Shown: positions 7,868 to 15,130 of the stretch, in pieces
Layout: each line of letters opens with the position of its first letter
How positions within the stretch are numbered: position 1 is the first letter of the stretch
Origin: Planctomycetota bacterium
GTDB lineage: Bacteria > Planctomycetota > UBA8742 > SKZP01
Assembly (NCBI GenBank): GCA_007127275.1
Contig: SKZP01000277.1
Location: forward strand, 1-20,164
Direction of reading: 5' to 3'
Length of the DNA stretch: 20,164 nt
Made by a program: the position numbers and the translations under genes
Notes under the pieces: generated by a model
Seen by the model: only the letters and a program-made list of their open reading frames with translations
What the model was told of the DNA's origin: nothing
The model's database searches: none

Positions 7868-9103
7868 TTACTCGTCCGGTCGGTTCACCGCACGCAGCAC
7901 CGCGAGTGCCTTGCGTGTCTCGGCGACGTCATGCACGCGCAGAATGCTTACGCCGTGCTGCGCGGCGACGACGTGTGCGGCGAGAGACTCGGGGAGCCTT
8001 TCCTGCGGGGGCGCCTGGTCGCTGATTGCGGCGAGGCTTGATTTGCGCGAGAGACCGGCAAGCACCGGTTGGCCGAGTGTGGTGAGCTCGTCGAGCCGCC
8101 TCAGCAGAGTGAAATTGTGCGCGACGGTCTTGCCAAAGCCGAAGCCGGGGTCGAGGACCATCTGCTCACGTGCAATTCCCGCCTCGAGCAAGGCGGCCGT
8201 GCGCTCGCGCAAAAAGGCATCCACCTCGGCGACGACGTCGCGCTCGTAATGCGGCGCCTGTTGCATGGTTCGCGGCTTGCCTTGCATGTGCATGCAACAG
8301 ACCGGCAGGTCGAACTCGGCGGCCACGGCCACCATTGCCGGGTCGCGGAAGCCGCCGACGTCATTGATTAGCGACGCTCCCGCCTCGACGGCGCGCCGCG
8401 CCACGGCGGGTTTCATGGTGTCCACCGAGAGGGGCACCGTGCCGTTCAAGCGCGTGGCAAGCTCGGCAATCACCGGCAGAACGCGCGCCGCCTCTTGCTC
8501 CTCGTCCACCGGCTGCGCCCCGGGGCGTGTCGACTCGCCGCCGACGTCAAGAATCTGCGCGCCCTGCTCGACAAGTTCGAGCGCGTGCGCCACCGCCGCC
8601 TCGGGGGAGACGTGCTCGCCTCCGTCGGAGAAGGAGTCGGGGGTGACGTTGACAATACCCATGATGGCTGGCGCGCCACGGGTCAGCGTGAGTTGCGGGG
8701 TGGTGTGCAAGGTAAACGTCCGTTGCGCGGCCCGCTCGAGCAACAAGCGCAACGCCACACTGAGCGACGAGTCCGCCGCGGCGTCCGCCACCAAGTCCCG
8801 CAGCGCTCGCTGCGGCGCAAGCAGCACCACCTCGCATGATGTGTCGCCCCCCTCGGCCGTCCGAGCCGCCGCCTGCATCAGCGCGACGTCGCGTTGCGAG
8901 CGCAGCCATGCGACGTCCTCCGGCGAGACGCGGTCGAGGTACACGCCGAGGCCGCTCGCCGAGGCGGCGGCGCCGCGTGCCGCTCGTTCGTCCGCGGCAC
9001 CGAGGGAGACAAGATATGCGGCGACGTGCGCCTCGGACTCGGCGCACGACGGCGCCCAGCGCAACAGCCGTGGTGCGTGGCGCACCCATGCTTCTTCGTC
9101 CAT
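7868..9103 (-). CDS. folP: dihydropteroate synthase with N-terminal extension
   Basis: It condenses 6-hydroxymethyl-dihydropterin diphosphate with p-aminobenzoate in folate synthesis, in the cytosol. The TIM-barrel motifs are complete: MGIVNVTPDSFSDGG (148-162), DVGGESTRPGA (186-196), SVDTMKP, INDVGGFRDPAM, HMQGKPRTMQ, DPGFGFGK (318-325), GLSRK (350-354) and RVHDV (389-393). The product has 411 residues, with about 145 before the barrel. This extension (LLRWAPSC, then LDRVSPEDVAWLRSQRDVALM) resembles the N-terminal region of long FolP proteins I recall in Geobacter-like bacteria; its role is unclear. The ATG at 9103 has a GAAGGTG Shine-Dalgarno and lies only 23 nt after the stop of the TPR gene, so the two are probably co-transcribed. 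Confidence 0.94.
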   Translation of the reverse strand: MDEEAWVRHAPRLLRWAPSCAESEAHVAAYLVSLGAADERAARGAAASASGLGVYLDRVSPEDVAWLRSQRDVALMQAAARTAEGGDTSCEVVLLAPQRALRDLVADAAADSSLSVALRLLLERAAQRTFTLHTTPQLTLTRGAPAIMGIVNVTPDSFSDGGEHVSPEAAVAHALELVEQGAQILDVGGESTRPGAQPVDEEQEAARVLPVIAELATRLNGTVPLSVDTMKPAVARRAVEAGASLINDVGGFRDPAMVAVAAEFDLPVCCMHMQGKPRTMQQAPHYERDVVAEVDAFLRERTAALLEAGIAREQMVLDPGFGFGKTVAHNFTLLRRLDELTTLGQPVLAGLSRKSSLAAISDQAPPQERLPESLAAHVVAAQHGVSILRVHDVAETRKALAVLRAVNRPDE

Positions 9104-9126
9104 GCGTTGACTCACACCTTCGCGTA

Positions 9127-10848
9127 TTACTCCGCCTCGACTTCTTTGCCGAGTTGTTCCATGCGCTCGGCAATCTGCTCGCGGCGCTCCTCGTCCGGGC
9201 AGTACCGGTACGCGTGCTTGAAACTTTCGAGCGCTTCGTCGTACCGCTCGAGGCTCGTCAACAGCGTTCCACGGCTCGCCCATGCCTGCCAATGCTGCGG
9301 CACTTTTTCGAGGATGCGCTCGACCTCACTGAGCGCCTGCGTCACATCCCCTCGAACCGCGAGGATGGAGCTGCGCAAGTAGATGGCCTGGACAAGTCCC
9401 GGATCAAGCTCCGTCGCTCGGTTGAAGTCGGCGAGCGCCTCTCCGAGGTTGCCCGTGATGTAGTGAGCGCGGCCGCGCTGGAAGTAGGCATGCGCGTACT
9501 CCGGCGAGAGTTCGAGCGTCCGGTCGAAGTCCTCCACTGCTCGCTGCGCCTCTCCTTGGGCCAGGTGAATCTCGCCGCGCAACAGGTACGCCTCGACGTA
9601 GGACGCAGGCTCCGCGTCGAGGAGGCGAGTGTAGTCCGCCAGCGCCTCTTCATACGAGCCGCGCAAGCCGTGAATGAAGCCGCGGAGGAAAAGCACGCTC
9701 GCGTCCATGCGGTGCTCTTCGAGGTCATACCACTGCGCAAGTACGTCGAGGGCCGCAAGGTGGTCCTCGAGCACCGACTGTCCGTCCTCCGGATGTGTCG
9801 CTTCGACCGAAAACGACTGCCCGCGTTCGCTTGCCGTGCGTCGCTGTTCGTGCAGGAACCACACGGCGTGAGAAAGTTGACGTTCCAACGCTGCGCCCAA
9901 GAGTGTCGCGGCCTCGACGTAGGCTTCCGCGCGTGCGCGCACCTCGTCGTCGAAGGTGGCGAGCTTCGCTTGTGCTGTCGCAAGTTCTTCGCGCAACGCC
10001 TGCACGTCCAACTCGAGGCGGTTCCTTGCATCCCCCTCCCTCTCTGCGTGGCGGATCACGGCCTCGAGGCCCTCTTCAAGGGCTCGAATCTCGGCTTCGC
10101 GCCGTTCCATGATGACTTGTTGTTCGGCGACGGTCCGTTGTTCCGCTTCGAGTTGCGCCCTGGCCTCCGCGTAGGAGCGAGCATGTTCCGCGGCCTGCGC
10201 CTCGAACTCGGCAAGCGCCTCGCGCTCTTGCGCAAGTCGCGCCTCGGTGCGTCCGCGCCTGGCCGCTTCGCGTGCCACTTGTGCGCGCAATTGTTTCACG
10301 ACCTGCGTGGTTTCGTCCGCCGCTTGCGTAGCTTCGTTGAGTTCGCGGCGCGTTTGATGCAGCGTGGCGACGAGTTCCTCGTTGTTCCTTTGCAAGCTCG
10401 CCACCTGCTCGCGCATCGCCGCAAGGGTGCGCTCTGCCGCCTTTAAAGCCTCCTCCGCCTGTTTGCGCTTCGCTTCCTGAGTCCGCCGGTGCTCGCGCAC
10501 CGACTCGGAAGCTTGCTCCGCGTCGTTCAACGCCTGCATTGCTTCGCGTAGTTCGGCGGTACGGTCGTCCTTGATGGCGCGTAGGCGCAATTGCTCGTTT
10601 CGGTCGGCCGCGTGGTGACGCTGGGCATCCTCGAGCGCCGTCTCCGCTTGCCGGCGCTTCTCGGCCTCCTGCGCGGCACGTTGCCTCGCCTCGCTCCACA
10701 TGCTCAGCAACACCACCGCGGCAGCGACGACGAGAAACAGGACCAGCACGGGTCCACGCAGCAGCGAACACGCACCGCCGGCGCCGCCAGCGAAGGACGT
10801 GGAACATTGTTTCGCCGCGGGATTCGACTCGTGGTTCGGTGTTGTCAT
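9127..10848 (-). CDS. membrane-anchored coiled-coil protein with five TPRs
   Basis: The 573-residue product has one hydrophobic segment (about 33-50, PVLVLFLVVAAAVVLLSM). A very long Glu/Arg/Ala/Gln-rich coiled coil follows (about 52-320), then five consecutive 34-residue TPRs (383-416, 417-450, 451-484, 485-518, 519-552). The repeats show the usual W/Y-x-x-x-G, A-x-x-F and P positions, e.g. YFQRGRAHYITGNLGEALADFNRATELDP. It should be tethered to the cytoplasmic membrane with a rod and a protein-binding TPR head on one side. The ATG at 10848 has an AAGGAGG Shine-Dalgarno 6 nt upstream. No catalytic motif is present. A scaffold or envelope role is inference; the tie to folP is spacing only (23 nt). 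Confidence 0.8.
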   Translation of the reverse strand: MTTPNHESNPAAKQCSTSFAGGAGGACSLLRGPVLVLFLVVAAAVVLLSMWSEARQRAAQEAEKRRQAETALEDAQRHHAADRNEQLRLRAIKDDRTAELREAMQALNDAEQASESVREHRRTQEAKRKQAEEALKAAERTLAAMREQVASLQRNNEELVATLHQTRRELNEATQAADETTQVVKQLRAQVAREAARRGRTEARLAQEREALAEFEAQAAEHARSYAEARAQLEAEQRTVAEQQVIMERREAEIRALEEGLEAVIRHAEREGDARNRLELDVQALREELATAQAKLATFDDEVRARAEAYVEAATLLGAALERQLSHAVWFLHEQRRTASERGQSFSVEATHPEDGQSVLEDHLAALDVLAQWYDLEEHRMDASVLFLRGFIHGLRGSYEEALADYTRLLDAEPASYVEAYLLRGEIHLAQGEAQRAVEDFDRTLELSPEYAHAYFQRGRAHYITGNLGEALADFNRATELDPGLVQAIYLRSSILAVRGDVTQALSEVERILEKVPQHWQAWASRGTLLTSLERYDEALESFKHAYRYCPDEERREQIAERMEQLGKEVEAE

Positions 10849-11044: not shown

Positions 11045-11572
11045 TCAGTTGCTCAAGGCCCCGGCGACTTCGCGCACGACGTTGAGCGCGGCGTCGTAGT
11101 CCGGCTCTTGCTCCAGCGCCGGGACGAGCTCGACGTAGCGCACCGTGTCCTCACTGTCGAGCACGACAATGGCGCGCGCATCCAGGCCGTTTTCCTTGAT
11201 GTAGAGGCCCCAGGCTTTGCCGAAGTTGCCGTCAATGTGGTCGGAGAGCGCCGTCATGTTGCCGACGTTGGCGGCGCCGCAGAACCGCTGCTGCGCAAAC
11301 GCCGTGTCTCGGCTGACCACGAAGGTGGCAATTCCACCGCCGAGCCCGGCAATCTTCTCGTTGAACGTGCGCACCTCCGTGTCGCACACGGCCGTGTCGA
11401 GCGACGGCACGACAATGAACAGTCGCGTCTTTCCGCTCGTCTCGGCGAGCGTCACCTTGGAGAGCTTTGAATTCCGCAGCTCGAACTCGGGCGCCTTGTC
11501 CCCTTCCTTGAGCTCGGGGCCGACGAGCGTAAGTGATTTGCCGTGCAGCGAAATCACACCGGAACGTTCCAT
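11045..11572 (-). CDS. tpx: thiol peroxidase (Tpx-type peroxiredoxin)
   Basis: An atypical 2-Cys peroxiredoxin that reduces peroxides with thioredoxin as donor. The 175-residue product has PSLDTAVCDTEVRTFNE, with peroxidatic Cys63 and the family's DT-x-VC motif. The resolving Cys98 is in RFCGAANVGN, and SRDTAFAQ and the AIVVLD strand also match. Length agrees with Tpx (about 165-175). The ATG at 11572 has an AGGAG Shine-Dalgarno 7 nt upstream. It stands alone: 482 nt after the pseudouridine synthase and 196 nt before the TPR gene. Confidence 0.95.
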   Translation of the reverse strand: MERSGVISLHGKSLTLVGPELKEGDKAPEFELRNSKLSKVTLAETSGKTRLFIVVPSLDTAVCDTEVRTFNEKIAGLGGGIATFVVSRDTAFAQQRFCGAANVGNMTALSDHIDGNFGKAWGLYIKENGLDARAIVVLDSEDTVRYVELVPALEQEPDYDAALNVVREVAGALSN

Positions 11573-11788
11573 GGGCTTCTCCTGTTTCGTCGCGGGGTCG
11601 TAAGCGAACCCACCTAACCGACTGGCGTCTCGAGCGGCGACGAGGGCCGAGGAACGGGACACGAAACCAAGGTGCTCGGTCGATGGTACGTTCCGCTGCA
11701 CGCCGTGCCAACTACAACCCCGTCGCCAGGTGCAGCCGTACAGCCGGCTTGACTGCAGAAGCAAAGAATGGACGGATCCACCTACCTC

Positions 11789-11810
11789 GGGCGGGCCTCC
11801 GCGCCCGCCC
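11789..11810. repeat. GGGCGGGC palindrome, copy 1
   Basis: GGGCGGGC-CTCCGC-GCCCGCCC is a perfect 8-bp inverted repeat with a 6-nt loop. The same stem recurs with a different 6-nt loop at 11927-11946, which suggests conservation of structure rather than sequence. Confidence 0.5.
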
Positions 11811-11926
11811 AATTCGTCCCGCCGACGGATTGCGACGGGCGCATTCATGAAGCGAATTGCGACGGCGCACATTTATCAAGCGTCCGGGAAGGACGGACCC
11901 AATCCCGACCGGTTCGTTGCACACGG

Positions 11927-12054: not shown

Positions 12055-13035
12055 CTACTCACTCATGGATGCGTCCTCTTCGACTGTCGGCAGTGGCCAC
12101 AACACGCGCTTGGTTCGCACGGCAACGCCGCGTGTCGCCTGCTCGAACTCCGCGGCGTCGAGCCCGGCCCTGCCCAAGGCGACGAGTTGACCGGAAAGCG
12201 TCTGCACCGCCACCTCGGCGTCGCGAGTGACATCCGCGGTGTAGGCGAGCACGCCTGGCACGTACAACGGGGATCCGCTTGCAATGTGGGCCACGGCCCC
12301 CTCGTCCAGCCAGATCCGTGGCATCCTCGCCGAGTCGAGCGCCGCTTCCAGCGGATACAGCGCGGGCTTGAGTTCCTTGTCGTCGAGGGCGTCATGCCAG
12401 CGGGCGCACGCCGCTTCGAGTGCGCTGAGGTTCACCGCGTCCTCGAGCGTAAAGCCGCCCGCCTCGGTGCGCCGCAACCAGGCCATGTGCGCGCCGCAGC
12501 CCAGTTGCTCGCCGACGTCGTGGCAAAGCTTGCGGATATACGTTCCCGCCTCGCAGTGCACGGAAAAGCGGACGTCGCGACCGGCAACCTCGGCAACCTC
12601 GAGCTCGTAAATCTGCCGCGTGCGTTCGACGCGCTTCACGCGCGAGCGCACCGGCGGGCGCTGCGTAATCCTGCCGACTTGCGCCGCCAGTACCTCGCGC
12701 ACCGACTCGCCGGGAACATCCCCGTGAAGCCACATACGTGCGTCGTAGGTCTTGCCCGCCCGCAACAGCACATGCAACACTCGCGTCGCCTGTCCGAGGC
12801 CGAGAGGCAACACGCCGGTCACCTCGGGATCCAACGTACCGGCATGACCGACACGTTTGTGACGCACGCAACGGCGCCCCCTCTCCACCACGTCGTGCGA
12901 GGTCATCCCGGCAGGCTTATCCACCACCACAAGCCCGCGCCGCAGCCCCGTTCCACTGGCCTCCTTCGCGGCCGGCACGAACCGAGGCGCAATCCCCGGC
13001 ACTCGTAGGCGAATCTCCTGTGGTTGACCCTTCAT
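12055..13035 (-). CDS. Cbf5-like (archaeal/eukaryotic-type) pseudouridine synthase with PUA domain
   Basis: The 326-residue protein is a TruB/Cbf5-family uridine-to-pseudouridine isomerase. Catalytic Asp69 is in GHAGTLDPEVTG (63-74); LDKP-like VDKPAGMTSHDVV precedes it, and AGKTY and AGTYIR supply the conserved Tyr97 and Arg168. Several features match Cbf5 rather than bacterial TruB: LDPxVTG in place of LDPxATG, LHGDVP (103-108), QRPPVRSRVKR (125-135) running straight into RTRQIYELEV without TruB's roughly 20-residue thumb insertion, CEAGTYIRKLCHDVG, and a C-terminal PUA domain (238-314) with PRIWLDEGAVAHIASG and VPGVLAY. The ATG at 13035 was chosen (weak AGGTCG upstream); an in-frame TTG lies at 13089. 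No Nop10, Gar1 or L7Ae gene is visible nearby. It may do TruB's tRNA Psi55 job; substrate is not shown by sequence. Confidence 0.9.
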   Translation of the reverse strand: MKGQPQEIRLRVPGIAPRFVPAAKEASGTGLRRGLVVVDKPAGMTSHDVVERGRRCVRHKRVGHAGTLDPEVTGVLPLGLGQATRVLHVLLRAGKTYDARMWLHGDVPGESVREVLAAQVGRITQRPPVRSRVKRVERTRQIYELEVAEVAGRDVRFSVHCEAGTYIRKLCHDVGEQLGCGAHMAWLRRTEAGGFTLEDAVNLSALEAACARWHDALDDKELKPALYPLEAALDSARMPRIWLDEGAVAHIASGSPLYVPGVLAYTADVTRDAEVAVQTLSGQLVALGRAGLDAAEFEQATRGVAVRTKRVLWPLPTVEEDASMSE

Positions 13036-13345
13036 CAAGGCGCGACCTACTGTCTTACGTGGCGCAAACGAAACCGTGTCCGCAGGCAAGGTATCACTCC
13101 ACCCGAAGGACGCGCGAGATCACGAAGTGAACGCGTGACGACATTCATTCCAACTGCTGCCCGCGGAACGTCCGACCCTTGGCTAGAAGGCTGCGACGCA
13201 GCAAAACTTGTATACCCCGTCGTTGGGGGGTGGGCTGGGATTGCGAGAGAAACCGTGGTTTCATGGTGCGGTCGCGACCCACGGTGAGTTGCGGCGCACC
13301 TGAGGACACGAAGGCCGCGACCTTGCTGCGAGCGGCGCACCCGCA
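13036..13345. other. divergent promoter region between the Cbf5-like gene and xseA
   Basis: These 310 bases must hold both promoters. Visible are a GCTGCG-A-CGCAGC dyad (13190-13202), the AT-rich AAAACTTGTATACC next to it (13203-13216) and a wide CCGTGG/CCACGG pair (13251-13284). No promoter pair is convincing. No gene is recognisable. Confidence 0.4.
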
Positions 13346-15130
13346 ATGAGTACCGACGACTCGAACGACCGGCAAGACAAGCGCGAAAAGGGACGAAAAC
13401 AAAAGGATCTCTTTGCCGCGCACGACTCCGACTCCGCCGCGTCACCTCCGCGAAAGGGGCGCACGCGGGACTTGGCCCGCAATCTGCACGTGCATCTGAG
13501 CGTCGACGCCGACGAGGCGGACGACAAAGAGACGCACGCACCGGGGGACGAGGAGGATACCGGCGAGTCCGCCGGCGAGCGGAGGGAGAATGCGCCGCCG
13601 CGCAGCACCTCGGTCAACCTCGAGTTCGACAGCACCGCCACACCTGCGCTCGAGCCGCCCGAGCCGCTTGCCCCGTCACGGGCTCGCTTACATCCGGCGC
13701 CGCAACGACGAAGCCGCGGCTCCGGCGCTGAAGGCCCCGACGCCGACTCGGAGTTGCTGACCGTCTCCCAGTTGACCGGGCGCCTGCGGCGGAGTGTCGA
13801 ACGCAGCTTCGGCGACGTGTGGGTCGTCGGCGAAGTCGCCGGCCTCTCGGCGCGCAGCCACCGGTTCTTCACGCTCAAGGACGACGCGGCGCGCCTAAAG
13901 TGCGTCATGTGGGCGAGCGACGCGGCACGGCTGCGCTTCGAAGTCAAAGACGGCCTCGACGTGCTCGTGCGCGGTCGCTTGAGCATGTACGAGCCGCACG
14001 GCCAGGTGCAGCTTTATGTGACCCACATGCAGCCGCAGGGAATTGGCGCGCTGCAGCTCGCCTACGAGCAACTCAAGGAGCGGCTCGCCACCGAGGGACT
14101 TTTTGCGGAGGAGCGCAAGCGGCCGCTGCCGTTTCTTCCTCGCCGCGTCGGCGTCATCACCTCCCGGCACGGGGCGGCGCTGCGCGACGTCATGCAAACC
14201 CTGCGGGCTCGTTTCCCGGGGATGCCGTTACTGCTTGCCGACGCACGCGTTCAAGGCGAGGGGGCCGTGGCGGAACTTGTCGACGCCATTCGCAAGATGA
14301 ACCGCTACGTTGCCCGCGGGGGCGTTGTCGACGTACTGCTGATTACCCGCGGCGGCGGCTCCTACGAGGACCTCGTCGCCTTCAACGACGAGTCGGTGGC
14401 GCGGGCCATTGCCGCCTCCCGCATCCCAACGGTCTCGGCGGTCGGGCACGAAGTCGACACGACCATTGCCGACCTTGTCGCCGACCGCCGTGGCACCACG
14501 CCGACCGACGGCGCGCGTCTCGTCGTACCGGAGCGTGGCGAACTCGAACGGCGCGTCCGCCTCGCGCAGCGGCGTCTGCAGGCGGTCATCCGCCACCGGC
14601 TCCATGCCGCACAAGCCACGGTGCGCGAGGCGCAAAGCCGGCTCGAGCGCAGCTCGCCGCACGGGCGGCTGCGTGGCGTGCGCCACCGGCTCGACGTGCT
14701 CGACCAGCGCTTCCATGCCGCCCTCTCCCAGCGGCTCGGCGCGACGCAGAACCGACTCGACCGGGCCCGCGAGGCGTTGTTGCACCTCGACCCGGCGCGA
14801 GCGCTGCTGCCACGGCTGCGCGAGCGACTCGGAAACAACGAGCGACGCCTGCATCGCGCCATGCGCCTGTACGTGCAACAACGTCGCGACCAACTCGCCG
14901 CGGCCGCGCAAGCCCTCGAGGCCTACTCGCCACTTAAGGTCCTCGCACGCGGCTACTCGGTTACGCTCTCCTCGGAGGGGCAAGCGCTCCTCGACGCAAG
15001 CGACGCGCAAGTCGGCGAAGAGATTCACACGCGACTGCACCGCGGCCATCTGCGCTCGCGCATTACCGCCCTGGAGCCCCCCTCTTCGCCCGAGCCGCCC
15101 GAGCCACTCGAGTCGCCCGACGAGGCCTGA
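13346..15130 (+). CDS. xseA: exodeoxyribonuclease VII large subunit
   Basis: Catalytic subunit of exonuclease VII, which degrades single-stranded DNA to oligonucleotides in repair, in the cytosol with XseB. Residues 137-232 are the OB-fold domain (LTVSQLTGRLRRSVE, then VWVVGEVAGLSARSHRFFTLKD). The catalytic core follows: LPRRVGVITSRHGAALRDV (264-282), LLITRGGGSYEDLVAFND (331-348), PTVSAVGHEVDTTIADLVAD (361-380) and RRGTTPTDGA. A long arginine-rich coiled-coil region comes next, then the closing LKVLARGYSV motif. At 594 residues it is longer than usual (400-450), mostly from a 135-residue acidic, Pro/Arg-rich, probably disordered N-terminus. The ATG at 13346 has no clear Shine-Dalgarno; a start nearer 13740 cannot be excluded. 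No xseB follows. Confidence 0.93.
   Translation: MSTDDSNDRQDKREKGRKQKDLFAAHDSDSAASPPRKGRTRDLARNLHVHLSVDADEADDKETHAPGDEEDTGESAGERRENAPPRSTSVNLEFDSTATPALEPPEPLAPSRARLHPAPQRRSRGSGAEGPDADSELLTVSQLTGRLRRSVERSFGDVWVVGEVAGLSARSHRFFTLKDDAARLKCVMWASDAARLRFEVKDGLDVLVRGRLSMYEPHGQVQLYVTHMQPQGIGALQLAYEQLKERLATEGLFAEERKRPLPFLPRRVGVITSRHGAALRDVMQTLRARFPGMPLLLADARVQGEGAVAELVDAIRKMNRYVARGGVVDVLLITRGGGSYEDLVAFNDESVARAIAASRIPTVSAVGHEVDTTIADLVADRRGTTPTDGARLVVPERGELERRVRLAQRRLQAVIRHRLHAAQATVREAQSRLERSSPHGRLRGVRHRLDVLDQRFHAALSQRLGATQNRLDRAREALLHLDPARALLPRLRERLGNNERRLHRAMRLYVQQRRDQLAAAAQALEAYSPLKVLARGYSVTLSSEGQALLDASDAQVGEEIHTRLHRGHLRSRITALEPPSSPEPPEPLESPDEA

Follow-up and report, generated by a model that had tools for sequence, protein, structure and literature searches.

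A Cbf5-family pseudouridine synthase in a planctomycete genome, with no H/ACA partner proteins detected

Introduction

Why does a bacterial contig carry a gene for a pseudouridine synthase of the archaeal Cbf5 type, and what might the enzyme do there? The question is raised by a 20,164-nt stretch of Planctomycetota DNA (GenBank assembly GCA_007127275.1, contig SKZP01000277.1, positions 1 to 20,164), hereafter called the window, in which an initial annotation made from the sequence alone pointed to such a gene at 12055..13035. That annotation offered two explanations, either an old transfer that replaced TruB and works without guides, or a bacterial guide-RNA modification system. We report that the window protein is a true Cbf5-family pseudouridine synthase in a bacterial host. 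With a probability of roughly 0.62, we take it to be a stand-alone, guide-free Cbf5 of old archaeal or early-lineage origin that mainly modifies tRNA U55.

The gene itself has already been seen, as some planctomycete proteins are named Cbf5 in NCBI records. We met no account of a bacterial Cbf5 in the open-licence literature, judged mostly by titles and the start of abstracts, and what we rate as new is that an enzyme family already known elsewhere occurs in a further domain of life, and there without its usual complex.

The window encodes a Cbf5-type enzyme

The cbf5 gene occupies 12055..13035 on the minus strand, as an uninterrupted frame of 326 amino acids with an ATG start at 13035; a TTG at 13089 is a possible alternative upstream start. 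The interval first reported was right, its strand had not been stated, and the motifs quoted for it are present in the minus-strand protein. The plus-strand frame of 12055-13035 was rejected as the gene. Against the NCBIfam models, the protein scored 311.2 bits on NF003280 (Cbf5, cut-off 242) and 277.4 bits on TIGR00425 (CBF5, cut-off 238.15), but only 135.0 bits on TIGR00431 (TruB), below the cut-off of 151.45. As controls, E. coli TruB scored 319.6 bits on the TruB model and 138.3 and 110.4 bits on the two Cbf5 models, and two archaeal Cbf5s scored 452.5/438.7 and 449.3/435.3 bits on the Cbf5 models. Nine proteins of the bacterial clan ranged from 241 to 321 bits on NF003280/TIGR00425, compared to 435-453 bits for the two archaeal proteins; the enzymes of two other planctomycete genomes, G025 and G047, gave 255/232 and 208/183 bits. 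A 67-row tree likewise split the Cbf5 and TruB rows at 100/99. The proposal of a Cbf5-type protein is thus borne out by both comparisons, and placement inside bacterial TruB, which had been named as the refuting outcome, was observed neither in the scores nor in the tree.

In the window protein, alignment locates the TLDP catalytic motif at residues 67-70 (12826..12837, minus strand), with the catalytic aspartate at residue 69 conserved in 21/21 bacterial-clan Cbf5 rows, 18/18 archaeal locus rows and 11/11 TruB rows; the catalytic Asp, Tyr and Arg are all present (D69, Y97 and R168). The thumb segment, residues 131-143 (12607..12645, minus strand), is short and of the archaeal type. In the printed alignment rows, the S131-Y143 span comprises 13 residues in the window protein and ten other Cbf5s versus 30 in three TruBs, so that the reported absence of the 17-residue TruB thumb insertion is real. 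Within this segment, V133 corresponds to the position of Pyrococcus furiosus V149 and is a valine in 20 of 21 bacterial-clan rows. A C-terminal PUA domain spans residues 239-312 (12100..12321, minus strand; PF01472, 63.8 bits), and an N-terminal extension, residues 1-28 (12952..13035, minus strand), lies beyond the region aligned by TruB structures. The predicted model of the protein, from its first residue on, aligns with P. furiosus Cbf5 starting at position 14. The Pfam DKCLD domain (PF08068) gave no match in the window protein and passed its cut-off in G025 and in three relatives from one planctomycete family, f92. The TruB_N and TruB_C_2 Pfam domains also match the window protein, which is identical at 62 of the 72 alignment columns that are at least 90% conserved in archaea.

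Comparison with known systems places the protein closest to archaeal Cbf5 (NF003280/TIGR00425; P. furiosus structures 3hax, 2hvy and 2ey4), with the same catalytic domain, short thumb, PUA domain and modelled N-terminal extension, and with 41% identity to 3hax over 312 structurally aligned residues of the predicted window model. It differs from the archaeal enzymes in its bacterial host, its lower Cbf5 scores, the unscored DKCLD domain, and the failure to detect Nop10, Gar1 and L7Ae in the bacterial carriers where these were tested. Bacterial TruB (TIGR00431; E. coli 1k8w, 1r3e) belongs to the same superfamily, has the same active-site residues and probably acts on the same tRNA position, but has the thumb insertion and, unlike the window protein, neither a Cbf5-type PUA domain nor the N-terminal extension. 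Eukaryotic dyskerin/Cbf5 (7bgb, 8oue, 3u28) is 31-33% identical to the window protein, carries N- and C-terminal extensions (PMC7991803, in excerpt) and is part of a full ribonucleoprotein (RNP). Archaeal Pus10, which also forms pseudouridine 55 (Psi55) in archaea (PMC7912444, in excerpt), has a weak C-terminal profile in common with the window protein but is a different family, its NCBIfam profile giving 39 bits on the window against a cut-off of 200.

Cbf5 and TruB across the phylum

Among 392 sampled genomes of the phylum, the NF003280 cut-off was passed in four: the window's own genome (G000; 3.53 Mb in 712 contigs, 54.39% complete, 0.07% contamination), G283, G051 and G025. G047 encodes a Cbf5-like enzyme below the cut-off (207.7 bits). 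Three of the 75 genomes in the class of G283 were over the cut-off (G283, G422 and G423), all from family f92, and the class of G051 has two genomes, one of them with Cbf5. A search for canonical TruB, as had been suggested, found none in six of the seven Cbf5-bearing genomes: with PF01509, only Cbf5 itself was matched in G000, G283, G051 and G047, and NF003280, which gives a match in 10/10 bacterial controls, matched only Cbf5 in G422 and G423. The seventh, G025, has both enzymes.

The G025 pair, at L004 1498-2466 (plus strand) and L030 1091-1981 (plus strand), consists of a TruB (207.9 bits) and a very divergent Cbf5, whose branch length is 2.58 in the 67-row tree. The coexistence of TruB with so divergent a protein suggests a different role for the G025 Cbf5. 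In G047, the gene at L073 490-1464 (minus strand) encodes a catalytic half of the Cbf5 type with a short thumb, 45% identical to the window protein over 215 columns, and no PUA domain recognisable by Pfam. A TruB-type tail on this protein was considered and is unsupported; its C-terminus matched nothing significant among 76 Cbf5/TruB sequences.

Many genomes of the phylum matched neither enzyme. Any NF003280 match at E<=0.001, some of them weak, was present in 224 of the 392 genomes and absent from 168, and a PF01509 recheck of nine genomes with a completeness of 90% or more, seven without an NF003280 match and two with a weak one only, gave no match (0/9). The window's class repeats this pattern, with Cbf5 in one of 20 genomes, a TruB-like match in two and neither in 17, and because of these 17 genomes the loss of TruB is probably wider than the gain of Cbf5. 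TruB may have been lost first, with Cbf5 gained later in a few lineages. Given that only 224 genomes have any match, the association between absence of TruB and presence of Cbf5 is not strong. In phylum genomes without TruB or Cbf5, Psi55 may be absent or produced by an unrelated enzyme, and the window gene draws attention to how many planctomycete genomes have no detected enzyme of this superfamily.

Partner proteins and guide RNA

The initial annotation, which had noted no partner genes in the window, called for a search of the whole genome for Nop10, Gar1 and L7Ae; we extended it to other carriers and it was likewise negative. Nop10 was over its 27.2-bit cut-off in none of the seven Cbf5-bearing genomes, the best score being 16.5 bits within a 996-aa frame of G283; the model passes its cut-off in 4/14 controls, presumably the four archaea. 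In the five carriers other than G422 and G423, Gar1 gave no match at E<=1, with a model that matches all four archaeal controls but is over its cut-off in two controls only, and archaeal L7Ae was nowhere over its cut-off, with weak matches of 12-13 bits in G047 and G025. G283 is 96% and G422 90% complete, so that incompleteness is unlikely to explain why no Nop10 was found.

No Rfam family was over its gathering score in the window, the only part of these genomes searched for H/ACA RNAs, and at E<=1 there was one sub-threshold small RNA match, unrelated to H/ACA. A guide RNA beside cbf5 was also considered and gained no support, as both intergenic flanks fold little better than shuffled sequences (z -1.6, with 6/100 shuffles as good, and z -0.9, with 17/100).

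A proposed stand-alone role in tRNA modification

Because the usual partners were not detected, the simplest reading is that the enzyme acts alone. According to this proposal, a Cbf5 acquired long ago from an archaeal or early Cbf5 lineage would work singly and without a guide RNA, mainly on U55 in the tRNA T-loop. The PUA domain would grip the CCA end of the tRNA, as published for archaeal Cbf5 (PMC7991803, in excerpt), while the catalytic domain would hold the T-arm, the short thumb would close on the uridine to be modified and Asp69 would act as catalyst. In TruB-free hosts, Cbf5 would then supply the Psi55 otherwise made by TruB. There is archaeal precedent in that Cbf5 forms tRNA Psi55 in vitro without a guide (PMC7912444, in excerpt), and the G047 protein, with its Cbf5-like catalytic half and no recognised PUA domain, supports a partner-free way of working.

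Several observations weigh against this proposal. The guide-free tRNA activity of the archaeal enzyme is faster with Nop10 and Gar1 (PMC7912444 and PMC7991803, in excerpts), Gar1 is indispensable at one guide-free archaeal rRNA site (PMC6138745, in excerpt), and neither protein was detected here. In Haloferax, according to the excerpted PMC7912444, the main enzyme for Psi55 is one other than Cbf5. Judging from the 62 conserved columns, the window protein may retain surfaces that archaeal Cbf5 uses for RNP assembly. The window's genome, only 54% complete, cannot by itself decide whether partners are absent. Finally, with so many relatives lacking both enzymes, including the 17 in the window's class and six of the nine members of family f92 (the other three have Cbf5), the absence of TruB says little about replacement, and G025 has both. 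Of the first explanation offered for this locus, an old transfer and guide-free action are favoured, while the absence of TruB from six carriers is compatible with replacement of TruB without demonstrating it.

Given these points, we considered a guide-free enzyme whose physiological substrate is some other RNA, such as a T-arm-like hairpin of 23S rRNA, rather than tRNA U55. The 23S positions U2603/U2607 are guide-free targets of archaeal Cbf5 (PMC6138745, in excerpt), Psi55 may be dispensable in the many relatives without TruB or Cbf5, and G025 has Cbf5 beside TruB. This alternative is nonetheless unlikely, though it fares best among those considered, as the archaeal rRNA site needs Gar1, undetected in all five genomes searched for it, and TruB, the closest relative in bacteria, normally acts on U55.

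The second explanation given in the initial annotation, in which the enzyme would be the catalytic component of an as yet unrecognised bacterial system that pseudouridylates with guide RNAs and employs divergent or different partners, would account for the retention of the whole Cbf5 architecture in the window protein (PUA domain, modelled N-terminal segment, short thumb and V133) and for its identity at archaeal-conserved columns. No positive evidence for such a system emerged, however, and we hold it to be improbable: the three partners went undetected in the genomes tested, Rfam and flank folding gave no guide near cbf5 (a search confined to the window), and the family includes the G047 member without a recognisable PUA domain.

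The wider interest of a natural Cbf5 without detected partners is that it offers a ready test of the extent to which the activity depends on Nop10, Gar1 and guide RNA, and of the way in which a protein enzyme came to be RNA-guided.

Origin of the bacterial Cbf5 group

In the 67-row tree, the window protein fell within a 10-row set that includes the planctomycete proteins P0003 and P0013 (96/92), and G025_Cbf5 branched at the base of the archaeal side with weak support (81/65). In a 64-row rerun, with two relatives added and the five long rows G025_Cbf5, G025_TruB, L020_TruB, L010_TruB and P0074 dropped, Cbf5 and TruB again split at 100/99, and the bacterial rows formed a grade below a 37-row set (99/95) containing named archaeal rows, several unnamed rows and P0067. 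The TruB outgroup branches are long and may pull the bacterial rows. In a tree without TruB (the same 69 rows minus the 11 TruB rows, G025_Cbf5, P0074 and G047), 18 bacterial rows, several of them metagenome proteins, lay on one side of a branch supported at 95/91. A single bacterial clade, here of 18 rows that include P0074 and G047 but neither G422 nor G423, was not rejected by the approximately unbiased (AU) test (p 0.267). Collectively, the trees lead us to favour a single ancient transfer, or very few, whose source was probably an archaeal or early Cbf5 lineage.

Since the bacterial proteins form a grade below the sampled archaeal Cbf5s when rooted with TruB, the group could instead have split off near the Cbf5 root, before or beside the archaeal radiation, rather than by late borrowing. 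We regard this as rather improbable; if true, living stand-alone Cbf5s would show how the family functions without H/ACA RNAs, Nop10 and Gar1.

Among the best 120 protein matches listed, the NCBI-named planctomycete proteins were P0003, P0013, P0067 and P0074, and in a contig search for named relatives the best 80 loci listed were all archaeal. The position of P0003 and P0013 in the window's own set agrees with a planctomycete host, as does genome G042 of the same phylum, in which 400 kb contained 7 frames bearing a DUF1559-type pseudopilin motif, with PF07596 confirmed in 5/5 of those scanned; this family is typical of planctomycetes. A stretch of 260 kb from G009, a genome of the window's class, contained no such frame, which speaks against the assignment. 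P0067, labelled Sedimentisphaerales, scores 412 bits, like archaeal Cbf5, and falls among the archaeal rows; either contamination or a transfer of its own may lie behind it, and it was excluded from the bacterial Cbf5 group.

Archaeal contamination or a chimaeric contig, the other refuting outcome named for this locus, is highly improbable. G000 is a fragmented metagenome-assembled genome, and the first named non-planctomycete protein among the listed matches is archaeal (P0007), but cbf5 lies within a 20-kb contig of bacterial genes with uniform GC (0.68 at cbf5, 0.64-0.70 elsewhere), the reported contamination is very low, seven genomes of the phylum, G000 among them, have Cbf5 (in family f92 the genes around it are bacterial), and the bacterial proteins mostly group by themselves in the tree. 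It is scarcely credible that the protein is a TruB without its thumb insertion that merely resembles Cbf5, as it shares TruB_N and TruB_C_2 with TruB but misses the TruB cut-off, falls on the Cbf5 side of the tree, has a Cbf5-type PUA domain and N-terminal extension, and can be grouped with the 11 TruB rows only at a cost of 45 log units, which the AU test narrowly rejects (p 0.047).

Genomic neighbourhood

The neighbours of cbf5 are bacterial, as first described. On one side lie hemD, dapF and folP, along with genes for a Ser/Thr kinase, a flavodoxin-fold protein, a TPR protein and a peroxiredoxin, the last being the downstream neighbour (11045..11872, minus strand; PF08534/PF00578). On the other side are xseA (exonuclease VII large subunit, by profile match), a divergent neighbour at 13346..15130 on the plus strand, and genes for a ThiF-type enzyme and a PQQ-repeat protein. 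Among the scanned neighbours, nusA, infB and rbfA were not recognised and the nusA-infB-rbfA-truB-rpsO order of E. coli was not matched, in agreement with the earlier remark on context; no tRNAs were found in the window. xseA is present in 19/20 genomes of the class, including G000. For 11 of the 18 relatives with an xseA match, the locus was compared together with flanks of about 1.5 kb; none of the other window genes turned up there, so that the insertion point cannot be read.

In the f92 carriers (L070, L170 and L171), a gene for enzyme I of the phosphotransferase system lies within about 5 kb of cbf5 in all three, and no link between this system and RNA modification is evident. In two of them, G283 and G422, a DUF362 ferredoxin gene adjoins cbf5, whereas in G423 the contig stops at this point. 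In the window, about 210 residues precede the pterin-binding domain in the folP frame (7868-9292, minus strand), the 5´ part of which overlaps the TPR gene frame (9127-10848), making a later true folP start probable.
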